A stretch of 64,000 bases of DNA from a virus. Below, piece after piece: positions 1-52,964 of this stretch. A model generated the notes under the pieces. The model was not told where the DNA came from. It made no database searches and saw only the letters and a list, made by a program, of their open reading frames with translations. The number at the start of each line of letters is the position of its first letter. Position 1 is the first letter of the stretch. Location of the stretch: IMG/VR virus record IMGVR_UViG_3300031576_000007, positions 47,990 through 111,989 of that record. One strand, 5' to 3'. The position numbers and the translations under genes were made by a program.

Positions 1-522
1 TTTCATACAGACACTCAAGAGGGTAAGCTAACCAAGTTATCCGTGCTAATTCCTTTTACAAAAATTCACTTTAATGAAATTGTACGATGGATTGATAGAA
101 CACACGATATAAGAGAATGCGCAGCGGCTCTTTCAGAGGTGGAAAAAAAATACATAACCAACCATATAAAAAAAGAAGGAAGACCTCTATACTTTTATAC
201 CCCAAGAGAAGTACTTCAGTTTGTAGGCACAGAAATCTGTAGATCTGTCCACATTAATTATCATGCAGAAGTGCTTTATGCTAGAATTATAAGCTCAAAT
301 TTGAGGTGGGTTATAACAGATGTTAGATTTGCAAATGAAAGAGAAATGATTAAGAAATTAGGTGGTATTTTAGTCAGGCTCAAAAGAGATGGTCATATTA
401 CCCAGGGTATTAATACAGGACATCCATCAGAGTCTTCGTGGGGTGAAGATAGTGAGTATGATGTAGTGATAAATAATAGCGGCACAATTGAAGATTTACA
501 AAAATCTACAGATCAATTCTAG
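1..522 (+). CDS. Deoxynucleoside monophosphate kinase, 5' end cut off by window edge
   Basis: Likely phosphorylates dNMPs released from host DNA to dNDPs for phage DNA synthesis. The frame is open to base 1, so the gene is partial; the GTG at 43 is an internal codon rather than a proven start. The visible C-terminal part has TPREVLQFVGTEICR, ITDVRFANEREMIKKLGG and a late H-x-SE segment, as in phage T4 gp1-type dNMP kinases. The P-loop of this family lies at the N-terminus and would be off the window. It is followed after 7 bases by a ClpP-like gene with its own AGGAG site. Family call is from motif recall, fairly sure. Confidence 0.8.
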   Translation, partial: FHTDTQEGKLTKLSVLIPFTKIHFNEIVRWIDRTHDIRECAAALSEVEKKYITNHIKKEGRPLYFYTPREVLQFVGTEICRSVHINYHAEVLYARIISSNLRWVITDVRFANEREMIKKLGGILVRLKRDGHITQGINTGHPSESSWGEDSEYDVVINNSGTIEDLQKSTDQF

Positions 523-529
523 GAGCATA

Positions 530-1354
530 ATGAGCCAGAATAAGAAGGAATTCCCAAAAGACGCTACAATTTTACAAACTACCATACAACAAGGTATTGA
601 TCTACAGCATAGGCGCATATATTTTGGGGATTTAGAATATGTAGAAGGTAGTGAAATAGAGTTTTGTTCTATTGAACTTACTCTACGGGCTATTGACAAA
701 ATGCTTGATATTAACAATAAACCTATAGAAATATATATGAGTAGTTATGGTGGAGACCCCTATGCCATGCTAGCTCTTCATGATAAGATTCAAGAATCCC
801 CTTGTAAATTCATATTCTTTGGTAGAGGTATGATAATGTCCTCAGCTACTTGGGTAATGTGTTGTTGTGATGAAAGGTATCTAAGTACTAATACTACTGT
901 TTTAGTGCATGATGGATTCACTGATGTTGTCGATAGAAGCACTGATGCTAGAATTAATTCTGACGAAAATGAACGTCTACAACAAAGACTAGCTAAGATA
1001 TATGAAGATAACTCCTACTTAGATAGGAAATTTTGGTCTACTGTAGGAAGAAGAGATTTATATCTAACAGCCGAGGAAACTATAAAATTAGGCTTAGCTG
1101 ATAAAATTACTCCATTTAGGAAAAGAGGTTTATTTAGAAAAGGCCCCAGAGAGCATACTTTTTTATCTAAACCTGACACAGAATCTATGAGAGGATTTAT
1201 TTCAGAATTATTCAAGAGAATAAAAGCTGAAGTACCACAGAATCTTCAGATAGTAGCAAATATTGACGAGTTTGAAGAAATAGATAATTATGATAATTCT
1301 GATAAAGAGCTGGAACATCTAGGTTTAAAGAAAATAGTGGCAACAAATGAATGA
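530..1354 (+). CDS. ClpP-like serine protease (cytosolic)
   Basis: A 274-aa protein of the ClpP/crotonase fold. Start chosen at ATG 530 because AGGAG lies at 521-525; a longer reading frame from 488 has no site. The catalytic triad can be placed by alignment with ClpP: Ser104 in GMIMSSA, His127 in VLVHDG and Asp176 in GRRDLYLTAEE, followed by GLADKI, the usual GLxDxI ending. The approximately 75 residues after the fold are acidic and not recognised. In phages this family serves as head maturation protease or as a ClpP substitute. Here it sits with metabolism genes, far from portal and capsid, so a maturation role is uncertain. Confidence 0.82.
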   Translation: MSQNKKEFPKDATILQTTIQQGIDLQHRRIYFGDLEYVEGSEIEFCSIELTLRAIDKMLDINNKPIEIYMSSYGGDPYAMLALHDKIQESPCKFIFFGRGMIMSSATWVMCCCDERYLSTNTTVLVHDGFTDVVDRSTDARINSDENERLQQRLAKIYEDNSYLDRKFWSTVGRRDLYLTAEETIKLGLADKITPFRKRGLFRKGPREHTFLSKPDTESMRGFISELFKRIKAEVPQNLQIVANIDEFEEIDNYDNSDKELEHLGLKKIVATNE

Positions 1355-1992: not shown

Positions 1993-2254
1993 AAAAGAAA
2001 AATTTGATCACTATCTCGGGAGACCTTTTGTATTTGGTAATCCATTCAGCCATAAAGAGGGGGCTTTAGCTATATTTAAAGTAGATACAGTTGAAGAGGC
2101 AGTTGCTAAATATAGAGAATGGATTTTAAATCAACCAGAATTAATTATAAGAGTAAAAAGAGAACTTAAAAGGAAAGTAATCGGATGTTGGTGTAAAGTA
2201 AAAGGAAATGAACCTTGTCATGGGGATGTACTTTTGGAGATAGCAAATGAATAA
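1973..2254 (+). CDS. DUF4326 family protein
   Basis: A 93-aa protein starting at GTG 1973, with GAGG at 1960-1963 giving normal spacing. The order GNPF, then EEAVAKYREW, then GCWCKVKGNEPCHGDVL matches DUF4326, a small phage family whose conserved Cys and His residues suggest metal binding or catalysis. Function is not established. Overlaps its SLOG neighbour upstream and the resolvase downstream. Confidence 0.8.
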   Translation: MRVVHCKKEKFDHYLGRPFVFGNPFSHKEGALAIFKVDTVEEAVAKYREWILNQPELIIRVKRELKRKVIGCWCKVKGNEPCHGDVLLEIANE

Positions 2255-2864
2255 AATCGAATACCTAGGTGATTGTAAAAATCTATTTTTAGACATTTCA
2301 TCAAGCTGTACTGGGTGGGTTGTTGCTGGGATGGATTCCCGTACTAGGGAAATTACTATATATAAGGCGGGGGTAATGTGGTTTGGTGATGATACACCAC
2401 ATGGTAAAAAATATAATATACTCTCTAATTTTGTTTTGGATACCGCGTATGTAGCATACCATATACAAAATGTAATAGCAGAAGGTTATATGGTCAATAT
2501 GAACAGAGTAATGGGTACTCTTGTTATCCCAGAAGCACAGGGGTCCATAAAGTCAGCTTGTTTCGAAACTGTCCCTCCTTTGGGATTCTATAATGTTTAC
2601 CCCCAAACCTGGAGAGCTGCTTTAAGTATTAAAAAAGACACAAAGTTTACTTCGTCTAAAGCCTGGAAGGAACCCACTAAAAAAAGAGTAGAAGAGTTGC
2701 TGGGTCAAAAATTACCTCCAAAAATTAGAAGTAATGTAACAGGAAAAGATAGACCTATTCCATATGACATTTTCGATGCTCTAGGGGTAGCTCTAGCCTG
2801 GTATATGAAGGAACCTAATAGTTGTGTAAAGATCAATGTAGATAAAAACTTCTTGATTAGCTAA
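2247..2864 (+). CDS. RuvC-like Holliday junction resolvase
   Basis: A 205-aa RNase H-fold nuclease. Asp17 in FLDISSSCTGW is the first acidic ligand; VIPEAQGSIKSA and the C-terminal YDIFDALGVALAW supply further acidic positions, as in phage and poxvirus RuvC-type resolvases. It probably resolves branched DNA before packaging or during recombination, which suits the RecA gene 4 kb downstream. It overlaps the DUF4326 gene by 8 bases with a GGAG site before its ATG, and is the last gene before a promoter. Confidence 0.75.
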   Translation: MNKIEYLGDCKNLFLDISSSCTGWVVAGMDSRTREITIYKAGVMWFGDDTPHGKKYNILSNFVLDTAYVAYHIQNVIAEGYMVNMNRVMGTLVIPEAQGSIKSACFETVPPLGFYNVYPQTWRAALSIKKDTKFTSSKAWKEPTKKRVEELLGQKLPPKIRSNVTGKDRPIPYDIFDALGVALAWYMKEPNSCVKINVDKNFLIS

Positions 2865-2887: not shown

Positions 2888-3106
2888 ATGATACCTCAGT
2901 TTAATCACACAGTAGATACGATCATAGTCAGCGTGGCGCTTATTGTCTCTGCTACTATATTAGGGCTTATTATAAGTAAACATCTAAAAGGTGTGGTATT
3001 TCAATTAGTTTATATACAATATGCTCTGAATTACTTAAACGAATTCTTTTCAGAGGAAAGTACAATAAAAAAAGAGGAGAAAGAAGATGGGGTTTTGGAT
3101 CAATAA
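2888..3106 (+). CDS. Small membrane protein
   Basis: A 72-aa protein with one strong hydrophobic segment (about residues 11-30) and a charged tail EESTIKKEEKEDG, giving an N-terminal anchor. No Shine-Dalgarno sequence precedes ATG 2888; instead a TATAAT box ends 6 bases before it. First gene of a set of proteins that mostly have membrane or export signals. Family not recognised. Confidence 0.6.
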   Translation: MIPQFNHTVDTIIVSVALIVSATILGLIISKHLKGVVFQLVYIQYALNYLNEFFSEESTIKKEEKEDGVLDQ

Positions 3107-3362
3107 TCCTAGCACCGGGCGTGATGACACCATGCTCACTTGTGCTGTAGCGGGGTTTATAATTAGCAGCATGATAGTTGTAGCCCAGTTTGTAGCCAGT
3201 CTTTATATTGAAAAGATTACTATGGGTGACATCTCATTAGTAATAGGTGCTATACTTACACCTACAGTAGCGGCATATACAGCTAGACGGTACACAGACT
3301 TAAAACATAGTAATAATGGGAATTGCCATTCAAAAGTGGATCAGCCTACAAATGGAGATTAA
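3087..3362 (+). CDS. Two-helix membrane protein, holin-like in layout
   Basis: A 91-aa protein with hydrophobic segments at about residues 16-39 and 48-64 and a polar C-terminus. Two helices in fewer than 100 residues is a common holin layout, but the lysozyme gene lies far away on the other strand, so a lysis role is only a possibility. The site AGAGGAGAAAGAAG precedes the ATG, and the gene overlaps its upstream neighbour by 20 bases. Confidence 0.6.
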   Translation: MGFWINNPSTGRDDTMLTCAVAGFIISSMIVVAQFVASLYIEKITMGDISLVIGAILTPTVAAYTARRYTDLKHSNNGNCHSKVDQPTNGD

Positions 3363-3374
3363 AGAAAGGAAAAT

Positions 3375-4103
3375 ATGAAGTTTTTAACAAGTTTTTTTAT
3401 TTTATGTTCGTTGATGTTTAAAGCTAATTTAAGAGCAGAAGTAATATTAGTAGCTACCAAGCCTATTGCTACTAATATTGTTGTAAAGATGGTAGACCAG
3501 ATTAATATAGATGAAAAAAGACTATTAGTTATACGAGATGATGTTAACGAAGGTGTCATAGATCCACTTATTATTAAGATGAATAAATTAGATAAAGAAA
3601 AAAAAGACCCAATATATCTGATTATTAATACCAGGGGTGGACAGATTGATTCTGGTATGTCACTAGTTACAACTATTACTTCTATTAAAAGTCCAGTAAT
3701 TTGTATTATAGATAATAAAGCCTACTCAATGGGGGCTGTAATTGCAACTTATTGCCCAAAAACTTATATTCATAAATATGCGACAGTTATGTTCCATTAT
3801 GCTGCTTATGGTGTTAGAGGACCTGAAAACATTGTTCCTTCAAGATTAGCTATTATCCAGAAAGAATTAAAGAAACTTCATCTAGAAGTAGCTTCAAACC
3901 TGGGGATTACTTATGATCAATATATAGAAAAAATTAGAAATGAATGGTGGATGACTGCTGAAGAGGCTGTTTCTAATAAGGTTGCAGACGTGTTGATTAA
4001 TAAGCTTAGTTACACATTTGAACAAAAAGTAGAAATAATGCCGTTTATATTTGGTTTGACTTACTACACAGACAAGTTTGTGTTTGATGTAAGGATGAAA
4101 TAA
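3375..4103 (+). CDS. Exported ClpP/SppA-like serine protease
   Basis: A 242-aa ClpP-fold protein beginning with a signal-peptide-like segment: positively charged start, hydrophobic FLTSFFILCSLMF, then NLRAEV where cleavage could occur. The active-site Ser is Ser118 in KAYSMGAVIA and His is His141 in VMFHYAAYG. The place normally held by the catalytic Asp aligns with Glu190 (NEWWMTAEEA), so the triad may be Ser-His-Glu. INTRGGQIDSG forms the oxyanion region. It lies within the membrane-protein cassette, which suggests action in the periplasm or on the outer face of the membrane. Different in sequence from the ClpP-like protein at 530. Confidence 0.78.
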   Translation: MKFLTSFFILCSLMFKANLRAEVILVATKPIATNIVVKMVDQINIDEKRLLVIRDDVNEGVIDPLIIKMNKLDKEKKDPIYLIINTRGGQIDSGMSLVTTITSIKSPVICIIDNKAYSMGAVIATYCPKTYIHKYATVMFHYAAYGVRGPENIVPSRLAIIQKELKKLHLEVASNLGITYDQYIEKIRNEWWMTAEEAVSNKVADVLINKLSYTFEQKVEIMPFIFGLTYYTDKFVFDVRMK

Positions 4104-4105
4104 AA

Positions 4106-4408
4106 ATGTTAAAATGGTTGAAGGGTAACTTCTGGGCAGTAACCGGGGTAATTGTAGGTATTGTGCTGCTTATCTTCATCAAAGATATTGAGAGACTTAA
4201 GGAAATTGAATCATTTTTTAGAAGGAAAAAAGTAGAAGACGAAGTTAATCAACTTAAGTCTACTTTAAGTTCTAGTAAGGTCCATATAGATTCGAATGAT
4301 GAAAAGCTAGTTTTACTGGCCGAAGATCTAAAGAATAGAAAGATTAAAGTTTCTAATTTGTCTGAAGATGAAGTTAAGATTTTTTACGATGATTTTTTTA
4401 GTAGTTAA
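4106..4408 (+). CDS. Membrane-anchored coiled-coil protein
   Basis: A 100-aa protein: hydrophobic segment at about residues 9-26 (WAVTGVIVGIVLLIFI), then a charged helix-forming region to the end. It starts 2 bases after the exported protease with AAGGATG before it. Layout resembles an inner-membrane spanin subunit, but no outer-membrane partner with a lipobox is visible. Family not recognised. Confidence 0.55.
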   Translation: MLKWLKGNFWAVTGVIVGIVLLIFIKDIERLKEIESFFRRKKVEDEVNQLKSTLSSSKVHIDSNDEKLVLLAEDLKNRKIKVSNLSEDEVKIFYDDFFSS

Positions 4409-4901
4409 AGGATTGAATCAAGTGAATTATAATTACGCCGCAAATATACAACCTTATACTACTCCCTCTGGGGGTACAAACTCACAAGAAAAAACTGGAG
4501 TTAAGCTATATAGTGAAACATTTAATGGTCTTGAATTTGATAGTTTTCACATTGCTATGTTACAAGAGGAAGAAACAGACAAGAAGTTATTAGAGCTATC
4601 TAAAGAGTTTTCTCCTAGATCTACTTCTTTAAAAGAATTTGTAGATAAGATTTCTTTAGGAACTAATTTCAATAGTCTTGCTCTAGTTGATCTTAGTTCC
4701 AAGAAATTTATATGTTCTTTTAAAAAATGTACTGTAATTATATTTGATGTTAACTCTTCTTATGAGACTGCTTTCTCCTCTATAGAAAAAAGACACAACA
4801 TAATAACTCTAAAATTAAGATTTTCGTTTAGTGAATTAAGCTGTGATGCTACTACCGAAGTTTACTATAATAACATGCTACAGATGAGTAAAAGCGAATG
4901 A
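4368..4901 (+). CDS. Probable exported protein, unknown
   Basis: A 177-aa protein overlapping the previous gene by 41 bases. The N-terminus MKLRFFTMIFLVVKG looks like a short signal peptide; an alternative in-frame ATG at 4389 would shorten the charged part. The rest has no membrane segment and contains Cys residues near FICSFKKC and SELSCDATTE that could pair in an oxidising compartment. Family not recognised. Confidence 0.5.
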   Translation: MKLRFFTMIFLVVKGLNQVNYNYAANIQPYTTPSGGTNSQEKTGVKLYSETFNGLEFDSFHIAMLQEEETDKKLLELSKEFSPRSTSLKEFVDKISLGTNFNSLALVDLSSKKFICSFKKCTVIIFDVNSSYETAFSSIEKRHNIITLKLRFSFSELSCDATTEVYYNNMLQMSKSE

Positions 4902-5335
4902 AAAAACTAATATCGCTATTGTTGTGCATAGTCTGTGTGTTACCATCAACAATATATGCTAAAGATGATCTAAAAATAGAAATCGTAGAAGTTGAAAGGT
5001 TTCCTTTTAGTTTTAAAACTGATATTACGTATAAGTTTAAATTAGACGGCTGGGCGTTTACTCTAGATCAAGAAAAGAAGCTAAGATTTAGACTACTTGA
5101 TGCAGACTATCTTGAAAAAGAGAACAAGCTCCTTAAAGATAATATAGAACAATATAAGAAGATGCTAGAAATAGAGAAGGAGATATCTAATAAGTACAAG
5201 GAAACATGGCTCCAATCTGACGAGCAATTAACAAAGGTGCTGAAAAGAGAAAGTAGAGCAAAACTGTGGTATTTGATACTAGGCATAGGTTTGACAATTG
5301 GGGCTGGAGCAGCTATAAGTCATGTAGGGAGATAA
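4898..5335 (+). CDS. Exported coiled-coil protein with C-terminal membrane anchor
   Basis: A 145-aa protein overlapping the previous stop (ATGA). It starts with a classical signal peptide (MKKLISLLLCIVCVLPSTIYA, cleavage expected after A21). A folded segment and a long charged coiled coil (about residues 65-120) follow, and a Gly-rich hydrophobic helix ends the protein (LWYLILGIGLTIGAGAAI). The central part would face the periplasm and be anchored by the C-terminal helix. Family not recognised. Confidence 0.6.
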   Translation: MKKLISLLLCIVCVLPSTIYAKDDLKIEIVEVERFPFSFKTDITYKFKLDGWAFTLDQEKKLRFRLLDADYLEKENKLLKDNIEQYKKMLEIEKEISNKYKETWLQSDEQLTKVLKRESRAKLWYLILGIGLTIGAGAAISHVGR

Positions 5336-5336
5336 A

Positions 5337-5888
5337 GTGATTTTGGAAGTATTATTTGGTACTGTTGCAATTATATTACTTTATATTTTATTATTAAAAT
5401 ATAGATTTAATAATGAGAGAGACTTATATATTGACAATGAAATAGTAAGATTAAGGCAAGAAACCCAAGCCTTGACTAATAATATTGGTGGTTTAGAGAT
5501 GTTATTAGGCAGCAAGGAGAAAGAGCTTTCTGAACTCGCTAGACAGAAACAAGAATATAAAGATTTATTAGATCAGGAACTACAAAAGAATAAGAGTATA
5601 ATTAGTCAAAAAAAAAGCAGTGAGATAAGGACAGGATTCATAGCCGAACAATTAGCTCCTTATATGATGCCTAAATATGACCCTAAAAATATAAAGTTTA
5701 TAGGAGCTCCAATAGATATGATAATCTTTTGCCCCGATGAAATTGTCTTTTTAGAAGTAAAAACTGGTGGATCGCACCTATCTTTTAATCAGAAGAGGAT
5801 AAGACAATTAGTTCAACAACGTAAAGTTCGTTGGGAAGAATTTAGATTACGGAATAGCAGGAGTAACAAGAATGATAAATCTAATTAA
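5337..5888 (+). CDS. Membrane-anchored endonuclease related to archaeal Holliday junction resolvase (PF10107-like)
   Basis: A 183-aa protein from GTG 5337, preceded by AGGGAGAT. Residues 4-22 form a membrane helix, about 30-95 a coiled coil, and the C-terminal third matches the Endonuc_Holl family: PKNIKFIGAPIDMIIF, then VFLEVKTGGSHLS, with EVK as the PD-(D/E)xK core, then RIRQLVQQRKVRWEEFR. A nuclease tethered to the membrane could cut incoming or damaged DNA at the envelope. The activity is inferred from the fold; the family has little direct biochemistry that I know of. Confidence 0.75.
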   Translation: MILEVLFGTVAIILLYILLLKYRFNNERDLYIDNEIVRLRQETQALTNNIGGLEMLLGSKEKELSELARQKQEYKDLLDQELQKNKSIISQKKSSEIRTGFIAEQLAPYMMPKYDPKNIKFIGAPIDMIIFCPDEIVFLEVKTGGSHLSFNQKRIRQLVQQRKVRWEEFRLRNSRSNKNDKSN

Positions 5889-6219
5889 GAGTCTACCTAA
5901 AGGCCTGTTAAAATATGTTTTAGCATTTAACGGGTTCAATGTATTGGATGCTATTATGACACTATTTGTATTATCTCATGGAGGAAGAGAACTTAATCCT
6001 ATAATGGTTTTTTTAATAAATTCTCATCCTATATTTTTTGTATTGACTAAGTTATCATTAGCTGGTATAATGACTGTTTATTGGATTAAAAAAGGGCACT
6101 GGAAAAGCATAAAGTTGTGCGCCTTAGCTTTTTATAGTGTATGTGTTTGGAATTCAGCTATGATTTTCTCAATTATAGAAAGAGCAGTACAAGTAGGGAG
6201 AGCAGCCAGTGGAAATTAA
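5872..6219 (+). CDS. DUF5658-like membrane protein
   Basis: A 115-aa protein with three to four membrane helices. FNVLDAIMTLFVLSHGGRELNP and the later FVLTKLSLAGIM give the N-x-x-D-x-x-x-T / G-x-x-E-x-NP / K pattern of DUF5658, a family of small membrane proteins of unknown role. It overlaps the nuclease gene by 17 bases and is the last membrane protein of the cassette. Confidence 0.7.
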   Translation: MINLIKSLPKGLLKYVLAFNGFNVLDAIMTLFVLSHGGRELNPIMVFLINSHPIFFVLTKLSLAGIMTVYWIKKGHWKSIKLCALAFYSVCVWNSAMIFSIIERAVQVGRAASGN

Positions 6220-6583
6220 GTCAGTTTCAGATATGACTATCGAAGAATTAGCGGAACAAAAATTTGAGGCTGGTAAAACATGGGTGGACGCTTGTGCTAT
6301 TCACCATCGTATGAACATTGGGTATGACAGTGGGGAAAAGCTACGAAAAATTATGGCTAAAATAAGATCTTCTCAACAACCCCCAAATGGGAAAAAAACC
6401 TGGACTCATGACGAATTGCGCGATGCAGCGTTGGCTACAGATGAATATACCACATTCCTTAATCAGCTTAATGAAGCATACCAAGCTATGTTGGATACAG
6501 TCAATGAAAGGGATAAATGGGAAAATTTATTCGAAGGCCGGAGATCTCAGATGTCGTATGAAAAGAGCATGCTAAAATCATGA
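6209..6583 (+). CDS. Hypothetical protein upstream of recA
   Basis: A 124-aa soluble, highly charged and probably helical protein, from GTG 6209 with GGGAG at 6196-6200. Its stop overlaps the recA start (ATGA), so the two are translationally coupled. This suggests, but does not prove, a role in recombination. The N-terminal half (VDACAIHHRMNIGYDSGEKL) has a helix-turn-helix-like rhythm. Family not recognised. Confidence 0.55.
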   Translation: MEIKSVSDMTIEELAEQKFEAGKTWVDACAIHHRMNIGYDSGEKLRKIMAKIRSSQQPPNGKKTWTHDELRDAALATDEYTTFLNQLNEAYQAMLDTVNERDKWENLFEGRRSQMSYEKSMLKS

Positions 6584-8586
6584 ATAAGAAGTTAAAAGAG
6601 CTTAAAGAATCTGTGGATAAGCAATTTGGTAAAGGTTCTGTTATACTTTTTGGGGAGGATTCAGATCTTTTTAATATTAAAGTAATCCCCACAGGAATTT
6701 TTAGTTTGGATAGATCTCTGGGAATAGGTGGGATACCTAGAGGAAGAATGATTGAAATATATGGCCCGAATAGTACTGGAAAAACTACACTAGCTTTATA
6801 CGTTGCTGCATCAGCACAGAAACAAGGAGAAATTGTAGCTTACTTAGATTTGGAAAATAGTTTAGATAGAAATTTAGCCAATGACTTAGGAGTAAATGTT
6901 GATTCATTATTATTCTCTCAACCTGATTGCGCAGAGAATGCCTTAGAAATTTTAGAGTATCTTGTAAGAAGTGGTGAAGTTGGTTTAATTGTAGTAGATT
7001 CTGTAGCAGCTCTTGTGCCTAGGGCTGAGTTGAGCGGGGAAATGGGGGATAGCGTTTCTTCTGACACCCCTGTTTTTATTAGGCACAAAACTAAAAAATA
7101 TACAGATATAGTACCTATAGAAGATTTATATGGCGGTGGGGATAATTTTCTAGGAAAACAAAGAATTTATAAAAAAACAAAAAATATAGAAATACTTACA
7201 CATAATGGTTGGAAACCTCTTTTAGCTGTGATTAAGAAAAAAAATGACACTAAAAAGAATCTATCATTAATTAGAACAACAACAGGTTATATAAAAACTA
7301 CTGAAGATCACTCTTTATTTCAAGATGGAAAAGAAGTATCACCAAAAGAGTTAAATATTTTCGATAGAATAGACGTTCATAATACGAATGATTTTAATTT
7401 TAATTTGAGTGGGGTTAATAAAAATATTGCTTGGTTATTAGGATTCTGGTGTGCAGAAGGTTCAACGAATAACAATGATTGTAAAAAGAACAGATTTGAA
7501 GTTTGTAATATAAATTTAAATTTGATAAATAAATGCAAAGAAATCATTGATTCTAATTTTCCAACCATTGGGAAAATTAGAAGACCAAAATCAAAAGATT
7601 CAAGAAATTTATTATATATTTTGACTTGTAATGCTGATTCTGATCTAGGATTTTTAATAGAAGAATGCAGAACTAAAAAATCATCCTTAAAAAAGGTTCC
7701 TTCTTTAATATTAAATGCGTCTTCTGAAATTAAAGAAAGTTTTCTTGATGGTTTTTTTCAAGGAGATGGTTCACATGGTAATAAACACGGGAAAATTTAT
7801 TATTATAATAACTCATTACCTATGATTGCTGGAATTCAATATCTTTTACATAGTTTAAACAGGAAAACTGCAATTAGATTAGATAGAAAAAGACCTGAAC
7901 AACTTATTTTAGAACAAGTAGAAAGCTTATTCCATAGAGAAAATGAAATCCGAGATAAGATTACATTAGATCCTCCTAATTTTTTGTATGACGTTTCAAC
8001 CGAGTCGGGAACTTTTGTGGCAGCTATCGGGAATATAGTTTGTCATAATAGCCATATGGGTCTCCAAGCACGTCTAATGTCCCAAGCGATGAGGAAATTA
8101 GTAGGGGTAACTAACAAAACTGGTACAACAGTAATATGGATTAACCAGACAAGACAAAATATAGGTCAATTTTATGGTCCTAATGAAGTTACTTCTGGGG
8201 GTAATGCTTTAAAGTTTTACTCTAGCATAAGATTAGAAGTCCGAAAAGGTGAAACTCTAAAAGAAAAAGATACTGTGATAGGGCACTCTCTCAAAATAAA
8301 AGTTGTAAAAAATAAACTATCCTCCCCTTTTACTACGTCAGAATGCAGCTTGATTTATGGCAAAGGTATCGATATCGCAGGAGATTTGTTTGATACTGCA
8401 ATAATATCAGATATTATAAAAAAGAGTGGGAGTTGGTATAGTTATGATGACAAAAGATTAGGTCAAGGACGAGATCAATCTATTCAATTTTTAATAGAGC
8501 AAGGATTACTGGATGAGATTACTAAAAAATTACAGAAACAAGAACCACCAAGCGCTGTACCCGAAGAAGTGAAATCAACAAAATGA
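6580..8586 (+). CDS. recA: RecA recombinase interrupted by an intein
   Basis: A 668-aa precursor: RecA residues 1-157, a 333-residue intein, then RecA residues 491-668, giving a 335-residue mature protein, near the usual length. Walker A is GPNSTGKTT (62-70), Walker B LIVVDS, and the region after the intein shows the L2 loop TSGGNALKFYSSIRLEVRK. The intein splits GEMGD from SHMGL, within the L1 DNA-binding loop, so RecA should be inactive until spliced. The product would catalyse strand exchange on phage DNA. It is coupled to the upstream gene (ATGA) and followed by a palindrome and a Ref/NinG-like nuclease, together a recombination module. Confidence 0.95.
   Translation: MNKKLKELKESVDKQFGKGSVILFGEDSDLFNIKVIPTGIFSLDRSLGIGGIPRGRMIEIYGPNSTGKTTLALYVAASAQKQGEIVAYLDLENSLDRNLANDLGVNVDSLLFSQPDCAENALEILEYLVRSGEVGLIVVDSVAALVPRAELSGEMGDSVSSDTPVFIRHKTKKYTDIVPIEDLYGGGDNFLGKQRIYKKTKNIEILTHNGWKPLLAVIKKKNDTKKNLSLIRTTTGYIKTTEDHSLFQDGKEVSPKELNIFDRIDVHNTNDFNFNLSGVNKNIAWLLGFWCAEGSTNNNDCKKNRFEVCNINLNLINKCKEIIDSNFPTIGKIRRPKSKDSRNLLYILTCNADSDLGFLIEECRTKKSSLKKVPSLILNASSEIKESFLDGFFQGDGSHGNKHGKIYYYNNSLPMIAGIQYLLHSLNRKTAIRLDRKRPEQLILEQVESLFHRENEIRDKITLDPPNFLYDVSTESGTFVAAIGNIVCHNSHMGLQARLMSQAMRKLVGVTNKTGTTVIWINQTRQNIGQFYGPNEVTSGGNALKFYSSIRLEVRKGETLKEKDTVIGHSLKIKVVKNKLSSPFTTSECSLIYGKGIDIAGDLFDTAIISDIIKKSGSWYSYDDKRLGQGRDQSIQFLIEQGLLDEITKKLQKQEPPSAVPEEVKSTK
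7051..8049 (+). mobile_element. Intein in RecA with LAGLIDADG endonuclease
   Basis: 333 residues from Ser1 (SVSSDTPVF, block A with Ser in place of the usual Cys) to the terminal His-Asn (GNIVCHN), followed by Ser+1 of the RecA extein. Block B is IKTTEDHSLF. Two LAGLIDADG motifs are visible: LLGFWCAEGS, where Glu replaces the usual Asp, and FLDGFFQGDGS. Removing these residues rejoins GEMGD to SHMGL exactly. Confidence 0.93.
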
Positions 8587-9911: not shown

Positions 9912-10496
9912 GTGGACAGAAAAAAGTGTATAAAATGTAATAATATTAAAGATATAATAAAGTTCTATTTACGTTCAGATACTAAAAAGTATCGTAAGGA
10001 ATGCAAGATATGCTCTAAAGAATTTCACAGCAGTATCTATATTAAAAATATCAATAAGTATAAAAAACACAATAAAAATTATTACATTTCTAATAAAGAT
10101 AAAGTACTAAAGCAACAAAAAGAATGGTATAAAGAAAACAAGGAACTTATAGCACAAAGAAGATTAGAATATCAAAGAAACAATCCAGAAGGACACTGTA
10201 AGAGGAATAAAATATATAGAGATAGATACCCTAAAAGAAGACTATATTTAACACGAAAAAGACAGCTAGAAAAGCTTCAAAGAACACCAGTGGGGGCAAA
10301 CTTAGATATAATAAAAATCTTTTATGAAAACTGTCAACAAGGATATGAAGTAGACCATATTATTCCTCTAAAAGGAAAAACTGTAAGTGGCCTTCATATA
10401 AGGAGTAATCTACAATATTTATTGCCAGAGGATAATTTGAAAAAAAGAAACAAGTTTGATTTTACTTTAGAAAACATTGGATGGAAAAATGGGTGA
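9912..10496 (+). CDS. Free-standing HNH homing endonuclease
   Basis: A 194-aa basic protein starting at GTG 9912. N-terminal CxxC pairs (CIKCNN, CKICSKEF) form a zinc ribbon; the middle is Lys/Arg/Asn-rich with repeated Y-x-x-N-K-x-K units; the C-terminus has the HNH core EVDHIIPLKGKTVSGLH with NLQYLLPEDNLKK. It lies directly before, and overlaps by 8 bases, the intein-bearing GMP reductase gene. Such enzymes copy themselves into a target site by double-strand cleavage and repair. Its own promoter-like element suggests independent insertion. Confidence 0.85.
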   Translation: MDRKKCIKCNNIKDIIKFYLRSDTKKYRKECKICSKEFHSSIYIKNINKYKKHNKNYYISNKDKVLKQQKEWYKENKELIAQRRLEYQRNNPEGHCKRNKIYRDRYPKRRLYLTRKRQLEKLQRTPVGANLDIIKIFYENCQQGYEVDHIIPLKGKTVSGLHIRSNLQYLLPEDNLKKRNKFDFTLENIGWKNG

Positions 10497-12711
10497 CAGA
10501 AGATTATACACGTTTTCAGATGTTCTTATAGAACCTCGTTTTTCTACAATTAAAAGTAGAAGAGATGTTGATTTAACAACTACTTTAGGTGATATTAAAC
10601 TACACTTACCCATCATAAGTGCTAACATGTCAACCATTACTGGTGAGGAGATGGCTTTAGTTATGGCTAAAAATGGCGGTATGGGCATACTTCATCGTTT
10701 TATGTCTATAGAAGATAATGTTGAAATGTGGAATAAAGTGTTCATGTCATTAAAGAACAGAGAAGTTGATACTGGTGGAAATATAAATGTCGGGGTTTCA
10801 ATAGGGATATCAGACGAGGAAAAAGATCGAGCAGTAGCCCTCTATGATGACGATGCCTTCATATTCTGTATCGATGTAGCTCATGGTGCTCAGATGTCAG
10901 TTGTTAAACAAGTAAAGTGGATGAGGGAGAAATTTAAAGATAATGTATTTATTATTGTGGGGAATTTTGCTACCAGTCAATCTATAAATGATTTTGTTAA
11001 TCATGCAGGGGGCAGGAGTATGCCGGACGCATTTAAAATTGGGATCGGGCCAGGTTGTCTTGCAGCGGGCACAAGGATATTGATGGCAAATGGTACTTAT
11101 AAGAACATCGAAGACATCAAGCTACACGATAGAGTAATAAATCAAAATGGGGATGCGGTATCTGTAATTGGAACTAAGTTCTCAGGATATAAGAAAGTAG
11201 TAAAATATAAAAGTAATTTATGGTATGATTATACATATGCAACTCCTGACCACAAACATTTTGTAGGTAATTACAGTGGTATAAAAGATATCAATCAGTG
11301 TGTACTTAGAGTAGTCTTAGACAAAAGAACAAGATCAGGTAAAAGTAAGTATAGTTGGGAAGAACTAGGCACACTAAAAAATCATACATTTTTAATGCCA
11401 AAAAATATTAAATTTGAGTTATCAGACTCTTTCTCAATAAAATTGTCTGATTTTTTTACAGCTAGACGAAGTATGAGTGGTTTTAGAGAAGATACGAATT
11501 TAACAATAGAGCCCTCGTATGAGCTTGGATATGTATTTGGTACTTTTTTAGGAGACGGGCATAGCAGCATTTCAAAGTCTATTAGAAGTACTGGTCGCTT
11601 GAATACAAGTGCTTTAACCACTTGGTATTTTGGTTTGCAAGAACAGTATATTTCTGATAAATTGGTGAAATGTTTAAAGTCTACTCTAAAAGTAGAAGCT
11701 AGTACAAAAAAGAGTAAAAACATGACCATTGTAATTTTGCGTAATAATTTTATTAGTAGATTTTTCAAAAGCTTTGGTACTAGAACCAATAAACATTTAC
11801 CGGAACAATACTTGTGTAATAATAAAGACTACCTAAAAGGTATATTAGATGGATTAGTAGATAGTGATGGCTACTATAAAAACGATGGTAGAGTTTGTTT
11901 TAGTAATACTAGCCGCAAGTTGGTTGAACTGTTTAATTTTGTATTTTTCCAAATAAATAACTATTTCCCAAGTCAACAATATAAAACCCCCTCTGCCGGG
12001 GGGTTAAAAAATTGTCTTACTGATAACTGCAATCCTTCTTATGTGTCAAGAGGGATAAAAAATCCTACTTTTAATATGACTAAAGATCATTATGTAAATA
12101 GAATAATAGAAATTCAGGATGAATCCGAATTATTAGTGCCTACTTATGACCTACAAGTGGATTGTAACACACATAGTTTTATAGCCAATCACATGATTGT
12201 TCATAATTCAACTTGTACCACTAGGGTAAAAACTGGCGTAGGAGTCTCTCAGCTCAGCGCTATTCTTGATTGTTCTCATAATACTTCTTTCCCTATTATA
12301 GCAGATGGTGGAATGAGAACACCAGGAGATATTTCAAAGGCTCTAGCAGCAGGAGCAAAAGCAGTTATGCTAGGTGGTATGCTAGCAGGTACGAATGAAA
12401 CTCCAGGTAGTTTCTTAGAAAAGAACTCGTTTGAGAGTGCTGTACTTGGGGGTCCTTGGGATAAATTTAAAAAGTACAAAGGATCAGCTTCAGAAGGCTA
12501 TGGTAATGGTTGGAAAACTTCAGAAGGAGTTGAATTCTTGGTTCCTTCTAAAGGCCCAGTTGAGGTAATCCTTAAAGATATTGAAGGAGGACTTAGGTCT
12601 GCTTTTACCTACACAGGAAGTTCCAACATAACACAATTTAGAAATAATGCTAAGCTAATATTAGTATCACAATCTACTATAATTGAAAATGGCCCACACG
12701 GAGCAAAATGA
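10489..12711 (+). CDS. guaC: GMP reductase (IMPDH/GMPR family) interrupted by an intein
   Basis: A 740-aa precursor from ATG 10489, which has GGATGGA upstream; a TTG at 10477 is the alternative. Exteins total 356 residues, the GMPR length. Hallmarks: FSDVLIEPRFST near the start, GIGPG/STCTTRVKTGVGVSQLSA once joined (TTRVKTGVG is typical of GMP reductase rather than IMP dehydrogenase), VMLGGMLAG and DIEGGLRSAFTYTGSS. It would convert GMP to IMP with NADPH, redirecting host guanine nucleotides. The intein splits the catalytic loop two residues before the catalytic Cys, so the enzyme is inactive until spliced. Confidence 0.9.
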   Translation: MGDRRLYTFSDVLIEPRFSTIKSRRDVDLTTTLGDIKLHLPIISANMSTITGEEMALVMAKNGGMGILHRFMSIEDNVEMWNKVFMSLKNREVDTGGNINVGVSIGISDEEKDRAVALYDDDAFIFCIDVAHGAQMSVVKQVKWMREKFKDNVFIIVGNFATSQSINDFVNHAGGRSMPDAFKIGIGPGCLAAGTRILMANGTYKNIEDIKLHDRVINQNGDAVSVIGTKFSGYKKVVKYKSNLWYDYTYATPDHKHFVGNYSGIKDINQCVLRVVLDKRTRSGKSKYSWEELGTLKNHTFLMPKNIKFELSDSFSIKLSDFFTARRSMSGFREDTNLTIEPSYELGYVFGTFLGDGHSSISKSIRSTGRLNTSALTTWYFGLQEQYISDKLVKCLKSTLKVEASTKKSKNMTIVILRNNFISRFFKSFGTRTNKHLPEQYLCNNKDYLKGILDGLVDSDGYYKNDGRVCFSNTSRKLVELFNFVFFQINNYFPSQQYKTPSAGGLKNCLTDNCNPSYVSRGIKNPTFNMTKDHYVNRIIEIQDESELLVPTYDLQVDCNTHSFIANHMIVHNSTCTTRVKTGVGVSQLSAILDCSHNTSFPIIADGGMRTPGDISKALAAGAKAVMLGGMLAGTNETPGSFLEKNSFESAVLGGPWDKFKKYKGSASEGYGNGWKTSEGVEFLVPSKGPVEVILKDIEGGLRSAFTYTGSSNITQFRNNAKLILVSQSTIIENGPHGAK
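11056..12207 (+). mobile_element. Intein in GMP reductase with LAGLIDADG endonuclease
   Basis: 384 residues from Cys1 (CLAAGTRILMANG) to His-Asn (HMIVHN), with Ser as the +1 residue. Block B is ATPDHKHF; the endonuclease motifs are LGYVFGTFLGDGH and YLKGILDGLVDSDGY, both with intact acidic residues; block F is YDLQVDCNTHSFIANH. Removal rejoins GIGPG to STCTTR. Confidence 0.94.
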
Positions 12712-16176: not shown

Positions 16177-16480
16177 AGTGTAAAATACTCCTAGCATGTT
16201 CTTCTGTCATCCCAGACCCTTCCGTATAAGCTTCGAACTCCCATTTATATCTCCATGGATTCCAACCAAAAGGCAACGCGAACAAATAAAGAAATAAATA
16301 CTTAACTAATCCTACTTCTTGCTGTTGCTTAATATGAATCAATTCATGTTCTAAAATCTTAGAACTTGGTGGTCTTCCTTCTGGGAAGTAAATAGTATCC
16401 CCTATTGTTGTATAGTTATTACTAGCAAAACTTCCAGTAAGCTTCCAGGCCCAAGACTTTTTTCTTAATTGATAATTCAT
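16142..16480 (-). CDS. Small HExxH metallopeptidase-like protein
   Basis: A 112-aa protein with the zinc motif HELIHIKQQ (His45, Glu46, His49) and Glu83 in KWEFEAY, placed where a third ligand is expected. A hydrophobic stretch YLFLYLFALPFGW lies between them. This pattern is common in small phage and bacterial zincins of unknown substrate. It overlaps the lysozyme gene by 4 bases, so it may act with lysis, for example on envelope proteins or peptide cross-links, but this is inference. Confidence 0.65.
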   Translation of the reverse strand: MNYQLRKKSWAWKLTGSFASNNYTTIGDTIYFPEGRPPSSKILEHELIHIKQQQEVGLVKYLFLYLFALPFGWNPWRYKWEFEAYTEGSGMTEEHARSILHSSSYGWLKLNQ

Positions 16481-17037
16481 AAGTTAAACAAATCTCTTTC
16501 TTTGTTTCTTCTAATTGTTAGCCCCTTAAGAACTTTACCCCCCGCACGATCCCATCTTAATAACTGATCAGCTGCCCCGCTATAATCTCCTGCGTTCAAC
16601 ATTTTTAATAAAGTCGATGTTTTAAAATTACCTAAACCTACGTTATAAGAGAACACTACTAAAGATGAAAATTGGTTGCTAGTTAACGGCACTTTAACTG
16701 CTTTGCTAACCCCCTCTTCAAATACTCGTAAGTCTTTATACAATAATGCTTCAGCTTCTATTTCAGATATAACTTGTCCAGGGGTGACATCATCACCAGT
16801 ATGACCGTATCCAATTGTTAGTATACCAACTGTGTCTTTGTAAGCTTTCAATTCCAGTCCTTCTGAGTCCTTTAAGAGCTTCAGTCCTGCTGTATTGATA
16901 TGCTTCGCGTCATCAACAATTATAATTGGTTCAGGCTTTCTTTCGAAATGGAGAATCTTAGCCTCCTCCTGTTCTTTCGGGGGTTTCTTAGGGGCCATAG
17001 ATAAAAGATGTTGTAATAATGTGAGAAAAAATTTCAT
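16477..17037 (-). CDS. Endolysin, T4/P1-type lysozyme (GH24)
   Basis: A 186-aa lysozyme. The catalytic triad is Glu59 (DSEG), Asp68 (KDTVG) and Thr74 (LTIGYGHTG), with the same 9 and 15 residue spacing as T4 lysozyme (11-20-26). SYNVGLGNFKTSTLL and GLTIRRNKERDLF complete the fold. It cleaves peptidoglycan glycan chains at lysis. The first 17 residues are hydrophobic with a Lys (MKFFLTLLQHLLSMAPK), perhaps a weak export or membrane signal. Neighbours are a metallopeptidase-like gene and a membrane-anchored coiled coil. Confidence 0.93.
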   Translation of the reverse strand: MKFFLTLLQHLLSMAPKKPPKEQEEAKILHFERKPEPIIIVDDAKHINTAGLKLLKDSEGLELKAYKDTVGILTIGYGHTGDDVTPGQVISEIEAEALLYKDLRVFEEGVSKAVKVPLTSNQFSSLVVFSYNVGLGNFKTSTLLKMLNAGDYSGAADQLLRWDRAGGKVLKGLTIRRNKERDLFNL

Positions 17038-17041
17038 AGTA

Positions 17042-17281
17042 TTATCTTTCCGTTAATAATTTCAATAACAAATCATTTAACTTTTCCAAATTATCCTGTA
17101 ATCTCTCAAGATCAGATCTTATATCTTTTATTTGTACTTCTTGTACAGCTACCTTTTCCTCTAATTTAGGAAGATGACTTGGTTCACTTTCTTTCTTTGA
17201 CCCAGCTATCTTTAGGATAGATAGACATACGGTAGCAACTGAACCCACTAATGCTACAGCCATCGCCATAGTAAATTCCAT
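17042..17281 (-). CDS. Membrane-anchored coiled-coil protein in lysis group
   Basis: A 79-aa protein: membrane segment at about residues 5-24 (MAMAVALVGSVATVCLSIL), then charged coiled coil to the end. This fits a holin-like or inner spanin-like lysis protein next to the lysozyme. No two-helix holin is present here, so it may be the holin, but the evidence is position and topology only. Confidence 0.55.
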   Translation of the reverse strand: MEFTMAMAVALVGSVATVCLSILKIAGSKKESEPSHLPKLEEKVAVQEVQIKDIRSDLERLQDNLEKLNDLLLKLLTER

Positions 17282-22399: not shown

Positions 22400-24466
22400 T
22401 TATGAACTTGTGAATTGAAACCCGACCCTCGCAAAAGAAGGAGCGAATTCAGTCATTAATGTTAAAAGTTTTTGGAATCGTATGGTATTAAATGGTGACA
22501 GGATTGCGTAATCACCTATTGGATCTAAATCTTTAACTACACCCTGTACAGTAACAGTTGTAGGAGTATTTGAAATAATAGGGAATATATCATTAACTTG
22601 TCCTTGTTTTGCCAATAAAAAGTTTCCTATTAAATTATTAGTTCCGCCAAAGTTAGCCGCTGTATCAGTCATCTTTGTCTTATTATCCCCGGTAATCTCT
22701 ATATTGGAACTTTCCCCAGTCCATAAAGCTACATCTTTTACTTCAACAACAAATTCTCTAAAATTAAAGAATCCTGGAATAATTATTCCTGGTAAAGTAG
22801 TGAAAAATCTTCCAGCATCAACTAAAGCTGTTTTTTTAAATACATTACCATTTTTGGAAGTATTTATAATCAGCCCCATATCCAATTCTATTTGATCTAA
22901 GGTATTATCTACACTTATCACATCAAAAAAGTTACCAACCCCATCAACAAAAGTATCACCTGATCCAACTAGGGCTAAATCTACAGCTCCTATATACTGT
23001 ATTATACCAGTCCCTGGAGTGTAAGAGTAAGCTGTAAATGGTGGACTTGCATCCCCGTTCGGGTCGTTAACAAAAGAAGGCTCAAAACCAAATAATCTTA
23101 GATTGCTACTGCCGAGAGTTCCAGAAAAGAATCTTAGCGCTCCGATATTAGGTACATCATCAGTAACTTCAGAAGCATCTTTTGTCCCATTAGTTACATC
23201 CCAAGTCGTTATTATTCTTATAAAATCTACTATGCCCCTTTTTGAGCCTTTTAATTTCCATGTTGGTAAAAGATCAGATACGATTCGCCTCATGTGATCA
23301 ACGCCTAATATATAATCTGCCTGACTAATCCCCATTTGTAGAGAGAAAGAAGGCAGAATAGTATTAAGCATTTTATCTGAATTTGTTAGATCAAAAGTGT
23401 TTACAAAGCTATAAATTTCATTCATCCCAAACCCAAACACTTGCATTATATCATGAAAATCTCCGGTTGTATCACACTGCTTGAATACATTTGGCCACAG
23501 TTCTAGTAAGATATCGCCAAATTCTCTGTTCATCGTAGATAGAGCAGCTTGTTGAGTTGAACTCATATCTGAGAAGACAGCAAAAGAGGTTTCAGCTGCA
23601 TTACCCCCAATTCTATGAGTAAAGGTTGTATAATAGTAGAATTGTTCACCCTCTAAACCAGTTCCTATTTTAGTATTGGCCTCTTGTTTAGTTAAAAAAG
23701 TGTCAATAAAAGAGAATTGGCCCTTAATTGTTTCAGATGGGCTAATAAAATCTTCAAATTCTTGAAGTATTGAGTAAGCCCCAACAACAGGAGTCCCCGA
23801 TACAGTAAGCATATCTGTGCTGTTGTTTCTTACCACAAATCTACTACCTGCAAAATCTACTAATATCCTGTCTCTTAGGGAACCTGGAATAAATGTCTTG
23901 GAAGTATCCCTTAAGAACCCAGAATTTGCTGATGTAGCAGTTCCTGTTATAACTTCTCCATTTGAGTTAGGGAAATCTTCAAGAACAACATATTGCCCTG
24001 AAGCAGGAGTACCGCTAACAAATATTTCTGTACTAGTGTTGCTTATTATTCTAAAATTATGACTTGTAGAATCTCTAAGTATCCTCCCAGTTAGTGGTCC
24101 ATATGGCGCAATAGTAGGGTAAGAAGCTGCCCCATCAGTTAATTTTCCTGTAGCCCCAACCCCGTTATTTCCTAGAATCTGTTTGGCTCTATATATCTCA
24201 ATCTGAACTGGATCAGTAAATCCTGAAGTATTTACTTTTGACGCGTAGATAGGATCATCATTGTATAGTTCCATCGGAAATGAATCTTTACGTCTACAAA
24301 CTATAAGTTCCATTGAAGAGTCAAAATTAGCTGGTTTCTTGAAAGTCAGAGATACCTCATTAGGATTAGAGTTTCTTGCTCTAAATTCTCTAATCAATCC
24401 TAAGTCAGTGGATACTCCACCTCCCCACGGCCCAGTACCGAAAGGTCCTATTCCCCAACTAGACAT
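22400..24466 (-). CDS. Baseplate / tail protein I-like protein
   Basis: A 688-aa protein. The N-terminus WGIGPFGTGPWGGG is typical of phage baseplate-to-fibre proteins. Around residues 370-430 the segment DLLPTWKLKGSKRGIVDFIRI resembles the P2 gpI (tail protein I) region that joins wedge and fibres. A beta module of the type found in the sheath lies at about 480-540 (GTGIIQYIGAVDLALVGSGD). It follows gpJ-like and fibre genes in the normal order of contractile tails. Moderately sure. Confidence 0.6.
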   Translation of the reverse strand: MSSWGIGPFGTGPWGGGVSTDLGLIREFRARNSNPNEVSLTFKKPANFDSSMELIVCRRKDSFPMELYNDDPIYASKVNTSGFTDPVQIEIYRAKQILGNNGVGATGKLTDGAASYPTIAPYGPLTGRILRDSTSHNFRIISNTSTEIFVSGTPASGQYVVLEDFPNSNGEVITGTATSANSGFLRDTSKTFIPGSLRDRILVDFAGSRFVVRNNSTDMLTVSGTPVVGAYSILQEFEDFISPSETIKGQFSFIDTFLTKQEANTKIGTGLEGEQFYYYTTFTHRIGGNAAETSFAVFSDMSSTQQAALSTMNREFGDILLELWPNVFKQCDTTGDFHDIMQVFGFGMNEIYSFVNTFDLTNSDKMLNTILPSFSLQMGISQADYILGVDHMRRIVSDLLPTWKLKGSKRGIVDFIRIITTWDVTNGTKDASEVTDDVPNIGALRFFSGTLGSSNLRLFGFEPSFVNDPNGDASPPFTAYSYTPGTGIIQYIGAVDLALVGSGDTFVDGVGNFFDVISVDNTLDQIELDMGLIINTSKNGNVFKKTALVDAGRFFTTLPGIIIPGFFNFREFVVEVKDVALWTGESSNIEITGDNKTKMTDTAANFGGTNNLIGNFLLAKQGQVNDIFPIISNTPTTVTVQGVVKDLDPIGDYAILSPFNTIRFQKLLTLMTEFAPSFARVGFQFTSS

Positions 24467-51593: not shown

Positions 51594-52964
51594 TTATGCA
51601 CCCAAGGGGAGTACATCTCTCATTCTGGCCAAACTTAACCTGTTGTACAAATCAAACCCGCAATACCATTTTAAACGATACTGATGGGCATTCTCGTTTT
51701 CACGAGGACCAACATACTCAAACACTACTCCTGCATCACTCGCAGAAGTAAAGCCGCAAAGACCAACGTATTGGCCCCAACGTCCGCAGTAGACCTGTGA
51801 TCCGTCATTTCTCTCATAAATATTGTAGGTTTCACCCACAAGTGAAAGAGAGGCATGGTTAGGAGCAAGAACTGTTTCTGCTTCGTTGTTTTCGGTGTCC
51901 ATAAAGGTACCAGACACAGCTACGGTGAGAACCGAAGGGTTCGCCATTGTAGCATTGGTAATAAGCCATCGACGAAGAATACCATCGTTGTCTCGGACAT
52001 GAACTTCAGCTTTACCAAGAGCAATACCATCAAGCAACGCTTGAGGGACTGCTACTGAATAATCTTCAGCTGTAGTAATTGAAGTTGCACCAACCGCAGC
52101 AACAACTCCCGTATCGATCAGGTTAACTGGTTCAAATCGTGACACAAAATCATTTCTGAACACAGGAATTTCCTGGTACATCAATCGGGGTTTCATGTTG
52201 CCTAATCCAGCTTGCTGGATTTGGTTAGCATCTGTTCCACCACCAGTATTACGCAGCAATGTGCGCAATGTTCGGATATCCCTGGCGTGCATCATTAGAA
52301 AGTCAGGTTTACCAGTAGTAATCCTGTCGATGAGAGCATCGAGATCTTCTAATGTGTATACTCGTCCTGGGCGACCATTTCGTGGTGAAGCTGGGTCATC
52401 CTCAATCAGAGCAGATGTCTGAGTTGAAGAGCCGTTGTTATAGAATGGATGGTTCACATCATCCAAATTGCCTTGTTCGCCATCGAGGATTTCTTTCATT
52501 CCTGAAAATTTCGCTTCGATCCCGATAAGACCATGGGTTGATTGAACTAGAGGTCCACCAGGTACTCGACGCAAATTGATGATCGCGTTCATATAAGTAC
52601 GAGCAATGTCCTTCGCTTTGGAAGAAATTTGTACTTGAAGTTGATCATTATGGTCAGATAACTGATCCTCAATCTGACCGTCCATTATAATCTCGCCAAT
52701 GATGGCAGAGAGATGAACGGCCACTGGTTGGAACGTAGCACCTTTTTGATATTTGCTAGCATTAAGGTCGGTTCCAGGGGCTGCGAAAGCTGATTTAGCT
52801 AACGTCTTTTCTCTTGTGAAAGAATAAGAAAGACCTTCAAACATGACGAATGGAAGATATTGATACCATTCATCAACTGTTATAATGTCTTCAATAACAC
52901 CTTCAACAAGAAGATCGTTCGATATATTAGCAGCTTCAGCAAGTGTAATAACTTGTTCGGCCAT
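51594..52964 (-). CDS. Major capsid protein
   Basis: A 456-aa HK97-fold capsid protein. MAEQVITLAEAANISNDLLVEGVIED is the family's N-arm in two segments; FTREKTLAKSAFAAPGT, IIGEIIMDGQIEDQL, DIARTYMNAIINLRR (the spine) and the final HQYRLKWYCGFDLYNRLSLARM are characteristic. It follows the scaffold, with AAGGAGATAA before the ATG, and is followed by a terminator. No cleaved propeptide is evident. Confidence 0.9.
   Translation of the reverse strand: MAEQVITLAEAANISNDLLVEGVIEDIITVDEWYQYLPFVMFEGLSYSFTREKTLAKSAFAAPGTDLNASKYQKGATFQPVAVHLSAIIGEIIMDGQIEDQLSDHNDQLQVQISSKAKDIARTYMNAIINLRRVPGGPLVQSTHGLIGIEAKFSGMKEILDGEQGNLDDVNHPFYNNGSSTQTSALIEDDPASPRNGRPGRVYTLEDLDALIDRITTGKPDFLMMHARDIRTLRTLLRNTGGGTDANQIQQAGLGNMKPRLMYQEIPVFRNDFVSRFEPVNLIDTGVVAAVGATSITTAEDYSVAVPQALLDGIALGKAEVHVRDNDGILRRWLITNATMANPSVLTVAVSGTFMDTENNEAETVLAPNHASLSLVGETYNIYERNDGSQVYCGRWGQYVGLCGFTSASDAGVVFEYVGPRENENAHQYRLKWYCGFDLYNRLSLARMRDVLPLGA

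Follow-up and report, generated by a model that had tools for sequence, protein, structure and literature searches.

A conserved phage gene cassette of mostly membrane-associated proteins, with a predicted exported ClpP-like protease and a membrane-anchored PF10107 nuclease

What might a phage do with a run of small genes that encode several membrane-bound or exported proteins, among them a ClpP-like protease and a nuclease? Such a run, here called the cassette, lies at 2888–6219 of a stretch of 64,000 nucleotides (the window, bases 47,990–111,989 of the 111,989-bp virus record IMGVR_UViG_3300031576_000007). The ends of the record share an exact overlap of 127 bp, as those of a circular, complete assembly would, and the window covers part of this phage genome of ca. 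112 kb. A preliminary description placed eight open reading frames (ORFs) in this region, o1 to o8 in Table 1, and all eight were located there. Domains were called by a Pfam scan with curated cut-offs, and also with PHROG, NCBIfam and PADLOC. Three of the ORFs exceeded the Pfam cut-offs: o3 with Clp protease PF00574 (6e-20), o7 with PF10107 (5e-20) and o8 with DUF5658 (6e-16). The other five had no convincing family in Pfam or PHROG. Topology was called with a hydrophobicity scale and counts of lysine and arginine, using an automated choice of start and no trained predictor; signal peptides are predicted for o3 and o6 and N-terminal membrane helices for o4 and o7, as had been described.

The cassette does exist, its genes are conserved together, and its ordered recurrence is well above chance. 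Kin were gathered through the capsid protein, which led first to 9 related IMG/VR loci and later to 51; 31 capsid-related records were searched for ClpP and the nuclease, and the matching regions were then read. Counting the window, seven contexts contain the cassette. In clade A (the window, G050 and G055) the order is RuvC – o2 – exported ClpP – o4 – o5 – o6 – nuclease – DUF5658 – o9 – RecA, and in clade B (G045, G063 and G062) it is RuvC – o2 – exported ClpP – o6 – nuclease – o4-like. The seventh, G054, has the clade A order minus the exported ClpP and the DUF5658 gene, with o2 and o4–o7 kept. Thus the core of o2, o4, o6 and o7 is found in seven of seven contexts, and the exported ClpP in six of seven. 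The preliminary description had let its proposal depend on co-occurrence of these genes in relatives, and co-occurrence is what was found, with the core recurring in order in seven phages.

The individual members differ in how widely they are kept. Homologues of o6 are found in all seven contexts, always directly before the nuclease, and those of o4 likewise in all seven, the clade B copy being placed after o7. Homologues of o2 were identified in G050, G055, G054, G063 and G045; the one in G062 is probable, a hydrophobic ORF in the o2 position judged from its translation only. In every kin context a RuvC-like gene lies upstream of o2, either directly or, where one small soluble ORF stands between them, one gene away; G050 and G055 have one small additional ORF after RuvC. 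Homologues of o5 and of o9 are each found in G050, G055 and G054, and those of o8 in G050 and G055. The cassette proteins of the kin have about 23–47% identity to the window copies.

Between the window genome and G045, 29 reciprocal-best orthologues were found in the early half, and 6 adjacencies were kept. The longest collinear run was RuvC–o3–o6–o7, a length matched in 465 of 200,000 shuffles; o2 was too short for orthologue scoring, and its inclusion would lengthen this run. Beyond the cassette, early gene order is scrambled between the distant kin.

All kin come from one capsid lineage, and G050 and G055 are close to each other, so the seven contexts count as less than seven independent cases. 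The G050, G055 and G062 records are fragments or have no detected end overlap. Many further kin records are fragments, so the absence of a match in them is uninformative. Single-protein scans with o3, the DNA polymerase and o7 gave no usable kin, and the capsid protein had no relative in the species-genome collection. The cassette was absent from all 39 loci of a scan based on RecA; PF10107 was found in 1 of these records and PF00574 in 6, without the cassette in those that were read.

Table 1. Cassette ORFs and neighbouring genes, with positions in the window.
Feature	Position	Strand	Description
Cytosolic ClpP-like paralogue	488–1354	+	PF00574 3.8e-18
RuvC-like gene	2247–2864	+	phrog_159 RuvC-like 3e-6; constant upstream neighbour of the cassette
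o1	2888–3106	+	Doubtful ORF, outside the set
o2	3087–3362	+	Pair of hydrophobic helices with positive charge at either end; core member
o3	3375–4103	+	Exported ClpP-like protease; Ser118, His141, Glu190; PF00574 6e-20
o4	4106–4408	+	N-terminal membrane helix and coiled coil, C-terminal FY/YW motif; core
o5	4422–4901	+	Probably cytoplasmic, fold not assigned; restricted to clade A; the annotated start at 4368 is improbable
o6	4898–5335	+	Periplasmic coiled coil with a signal peptide and a membrane helix at the C-terminus; core
o7	5337–5888	+	PF10107 nuclease, N-terminal membrane helix, long helical stalk; D127, E140, K142
o8	5872–6219	+	DUF5658 multi-helix membrane protein, PF18902 6e-16; clade A only, not in G054
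o9	6209–6583	+	Soluble protein, no assigned function; downstream neighbour in clade A
RecA with intein	6580–8586	+	PF00154 4e-101, LAGLIDADG 1.5e-12; downstream neighbour in clade A

The initial description needs correction for two of the eight ORFs. The first, o1, is doubtful: it has no visible ribosome-binding site, starts at about the point where transcription from a putative promoter would begin, and lacks a homologue among the kin, and for these reasons it was left out of the set. The promoter itself (TTGATT-17-TATAAT, 2853–2881, upstream of the cassette) does exist and is a good match, as had been claimed, but such sites are no commoner than in shuffled sequence (34 observed, 39.5 +/- 6.7 in shuffles), a better match lies inside o8 at 6043, and in the closest kin the genes leave no space between them at the position of the promoter. 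The other, o5, had been taken for an exported or anchored protein. Its ORF can open at ATG 4368, while GTG 4422 stands 9 nt behind AAAGGA (4407–4412); because of this site, and because the homologues in G050, G055 and G054 have no signal peptide, o5 is most likely cytoplasmic and starts at GTG 4422, as judged from sequence. No solved relative of o5 was found by sequence.

The protease is ClpP-like. The match of o3 to PF00574 scores 72.3 bits (cut-off 20.2), and a profile search reaches ClpP structures at 2.4e-29, with an alignment that spans the whole ClpP core. In the tree, the six exported ClpPs group together in a single clade, separate from the cytosolic phage ClpPs and from E. coli ClpP. 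All six have an N-terminal hydrophobic export segment, with a best 10-residue Kyte-Doolittle mean of 2.3–2.9, compared to at most 1.6 in the others. In most of them a plausible cleavage motif follows the segment; the segment of G045 is more anchor-like. The preliminary description had called the protein ClpP/SppA-like, and the second half of that name does not hold: the S49 models are below cut-off (NfeD1b 36.2 bits against 40, SppA 15.7 against 155), and the ClpP-type His is invariant. A structure model of o3 made from two sequences was poor and added nothing. ClpP peptidases work as two stacked heptamers together with an AAA+ unfoldase, and such an unfoldase is not expected in the periplasm.

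Ser and His are present in six of six o3 homologues, and the Asp position is Glu in four and Asn in two – the exported ClpPs lack the canonical Ser-His-Asp triad, while the cytosolic paralogues of the kin in the tree keep the Asp. In a Pseudomonas ClpP, Ser and His are indispensable and the third residue modulates activity, and Listeria ClpP1 has a Ser-His-Asn triad (PMC12900304). Since Ser and His are kept and the third residue is only modulating in the Pseudomonas enzyme, o3 may well be active as a protease.

All six genomes with an exported ClpP (the window, G050, G055, G045, G062 and G063) also encode a cytosolic ClpP paralogue. No ClpP of either kind was found anywhere in the G054 record, which has a 30-bp end overlap and is probably a complete genome. 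Because they are paired in all six genomes and both missing from G054, the two ClpPs may be functionally linked. The protease is not obligatory to the cassette, since G054 keeps o2, o4, o5, o6 and o7 without it.

The nuclease belongs to PF10107 (Endonuc_Holl; 72.4 bits, cut-off 23.8). Its D...ExK residues D127, E140 and K142 do not vary among 44 homologues, which come from phages, bacteria and archaea. A model of o7 built from 44 sequences (pLDDT 91) has one helix at residues 2–106 and, after it, a small nuclease domain of alpha/beta type; with a pTM of 0.50, the relative placement of helix and domain is uncertain. Estimated from helix geometry, ca. 20 residues of the helix would serve as the anchor and ca. 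85 would extend beyond it, on the order of 10 nm. Among the structural neighbours of o7, nucleases of the VRR_NUC and FAN1 types are the more plausible ones, although their E-values are weak.

An N-terminal hydrophobic helix was found in 12 of 13 distinct phage homologues and 76 of 78 distinct genome homologues of PF10107, compared to a background of 309 in 1,013 similar-sized proteins of the same loci. Lysine and arginine are more frequent after this helix than before it (N-out/C-in) in 87 of the 88 PF10107 proteins that have it, and the scored o7 anchors of the cassette have none before and two to four after. Because of this charge pattern, the nuclease domain of o7 is predicted to face the cytoplasm. 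Nearly all of the PF10107 proteins sampled across phages, bacteria and archaea (loci L084–L105 and L181–L260) look like cytoplasmic nucleases anchored in the inner membrane, although the annotation in places is that of a secreted protein.

Taken as a whole, the cassette may tentatively be read, as the favoured of several explanations, as an early envelope barrier to superinfecting phages, similar to SNIPE with the addition of a periplasmic protease; superinfection exclusion is plausible by analogy. The cassette is on the strand of the replication genes and opposite to the structural genes, which suggests that it is expressed before assembly and lysis. We infer that o2, o3, o4, o6, o7 and o8 form one complex. 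In such a complex o7 would be anchored in the inner membrane, its short N-terminus in the periplasm and its nuclease on a long cytoplasmic stalk. The PD-(D/E)xK-type domain of o7 would then cleave DNA as it comes through the membrane and spare that of the resident phage, which lies further inside the cell. o6, o2, o4 and, where present, o8 could hold o7 or sense the incoming tail, and on the periplasmic side o3 could break down tail or ejection proteins of the incoming phage. A periplasmic protease together with a periplasmic coiled coil would make the barrier at the injection site two-sided. A stronger form of the idea, judged rather unlikely, is a trans-envelope machine that hits an incoming phage twice, with an unfoldase-free ClpP acting on ejection proteins and a stalked nuclease on DNA; it would distinguish self from non-self by place. 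In that case PF10107 would be a common but so far overlooked type of membrane-anchored nuclease for entering DNA, spread over bacteria, archaea and phages.

The barrier is supported by the conserved core, by the longest collinear run and by the conserved export signals of the o3 and o6 homologues, and also by the invariant nuclease residues, the modelled long helix, the N-out/C-in charge pattern, the SNIPE-like layout and the strand of the cassette. The envelope set for degrading proteins and DNA proposed in the preliminary description stands insofar as conserved signal peptides and charge patterns predict a periplasmic protease and a cytoplasmic nuclease; the export of o5, the membership of o1, the promoter and the likeness to SppA do not. 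Several observations weigh against a barrier. The cassette lies between RuvC and RecA, and G054 has no protease. Outside this lineage the PF10107 gene stands alone: profiles of o2, o3, o4 and o6 had no match in 22 phage-scan and 80 genome loci, except in G045. Some phage copies of PF10107 adjoin an apparent Sak4-type ATPase and exonuclease genes (a reading of the sequence without family search). PADLOC gave no convincing defence match for the cassette, and marginal ones only, the best at 0.0008 (HerA, for o5).

Some of these observations suit the main alternative explanation, considered somewhat unlikely, in which the cassette is a membrane-tethered apparatus for the phage's own replication and recombination. 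Here o7 would resolve or trim branched intermediates or host DNA, o2, o4 and o6 would be anchors, and the ClpP would be a separate envelope factor. The constant RuvC-like neighbour upstream and RecA downstream in clade A, the recombination-type genes beside PF10107 in unrelated phages and the dispensable protease are all consistent with it, as are the nearest folds, VRR_NUC and FAN1, which are structure-specific nucleases. It leaves unexplained, however, why a periplasmic coiled coil always precedes the nuclease and why six of seven genomes have an exported protease, and the phage already encodes a RuvC-like resolvase.

The genes could also make no single complex, the locus being an early site that collects independent small membrane and envelope factors. 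The variability of o1, o5 and o8, the loss of o3 and o8 in G054 and the function of PF10107 elsewhere without these partners agree with such a loose set. The company of o2, o4, o6 and o7 in seven contexts, at about 25–47% identity and despite scrambled surroundings, and the fixed position of o6 directly before o7 argue against it and make it unlikely.

A cassette for lysis or its timing, with o2 as holin and o4 and o6 as spanin-like proteins, is improbable. The two helices and positively charged ends of o2 would fit, and o4-like proteins match an Rz-like spanin weakly (best 1.4e-4). Lysis is disfavoured because there is a separate lysozyme region on the other strand: a lysozyme and a small membrane protein are encoded at 16477–17281 of the late strand, ca. 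10 kb away, so the cassette is not an endolysin gene accompanied by holin and spanins. The lysozyme (16477–17037, minus; PF00959 6.6e-48) bears out the earlier statement that the lysis genes are outside the cassette. o6 has no lipobox and was rejected as an outer-membrane-anchored spanin; the cassette lies among replication genes, and a nuclease and a protease are foreign to lysis sets. In NCBIfam the lysozyme matches best the model of BgtA, a gene transfer agent endolysin (7.7e-44), with a score that does not reach the curated cut-off. The early half also encodes a membrane-anchored SLT-type transglycosylase (1.9e-18; L003 9331–9831, G000:C1 9331–9831) at a distance from the lysis genes. That o3 is a head maturation protease unrelated to the rest is highly improbable: its best matches include head-maturation models of PHROG and NCBIfam, as for ClpP folds generally, but the score is 62 bits against a cut-off of 120, all six homologues have the export segment, the capsid (51594–52964) and portal-like (54312–56132) genes are elsewhere and on the minus strand, opposite to o3, and G054 has a related capsid without o3.

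Every recognised domain of the cassette is of a known family, and the combination was not found among named phages, in PADLOC or in the open-access papers searched, as the preliminary description had supposed. In the named phages, o2, o6 and o8 gave nothing convincing, the best o3 matches opened were ordinary cytosolic or host ClpPs, and the o7 matches were Acinetobacter chromosome-like contigs. The phage-collection records CAKLQH020000003.1 and OR844990.1 resemble host chromosome contigs despite their phage label, with amino-acid permease and superoxide dismutase genes and a housekeeping clpP neighbourhood. In the open-access subset of papers, no exported ClpP-like protease of a phage, no protease-based exclusion and nothing on DUF5658 was found.

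Other features of the genome are of potential interest. There are three intein-like insertions, at 6580–8586 (+), 10477–12711 (+) and L004 7865–9904; they interrupt RecA (LAGLIDADG 1.5e-12), a protein resembling IMP dehydrogenase/GMP reductase, and a member of the RNA ligase family (LAGLIDADG_2 1.9e-24). Two further early-half genes, for an exported protein of the OmpA family (1.9e-15) and a lipoprotein-like collagen-repeat protein (1.6e-13), are at L004 2641–3339 and 3215–4156 (G000:C1 about 22641–24156), and because of this pair the phage may remodel the host envelope.

Several known systems are related to the cassette or resemble it. o3 shares the whole core and the Ser and His of ClpP peptidases (S14), and differs from them in its export signal, in Glu or Asn for Asp, and in an expected compartment without ClpX/ClpA-type unfoldases. 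o7 is a member of PF10107, most of which share the N-terminal anchor; o2, o3, o4 and o6 are beside it only in this lineage. T4 encodes the envelope proteins Imm and Sp, which keep phages that arrive later from injecting their DNA (PMC11436027); the likeness is one of analogy only, and unlike the cassette they include no nuclease or protease. Kiwa and Zorya also combine membrane proteins with a DNA-binding or DNA-cutting part near the injection site (PMC12904381), but PADLOC found no sequence relation, and the cassette has no motor and no KwaA/KwaB. A membrane-localised block to phage DNA entry, which is possibly what the cassette is, is thus known as a kind.

The closest likeness in layout is to SNIPE, through which membrane-anchored nucleases acting on entering DNA were established only recently. 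SNIPE has a periplasmic N-terminus, one inner-membrane helix and cytoplasmic DNA-binding and nuclease domains, as determined by PhoA-LacZ fusions; it cuts phage DNA during injection, associates with tape measure proteins and is toxic without its anchor (PMC13190303). For o7, a periplasmic N-terminus, a single inner-membrane helix, an extended middle and a C-terminal cytoplasmic nuclease are predicted. It is not SNIPE, because it has neither GIY-YIG nor DUF4041 in the Pfam scan; it has PF10107 and a plain helical stalk instead, and it is phage-encoded, with envelope partners and mostly a periplasmic protease. By analogy, o7 may nonetheless work like SNIPE. If so, PF10107, which occurs in archaea, bacteria and phages and in one phage lineage is tied to periplasmic partners, would be a second, unrelated nuclease family with the predicted layout of SNIPE, and discrimination by place would be a wider principle.

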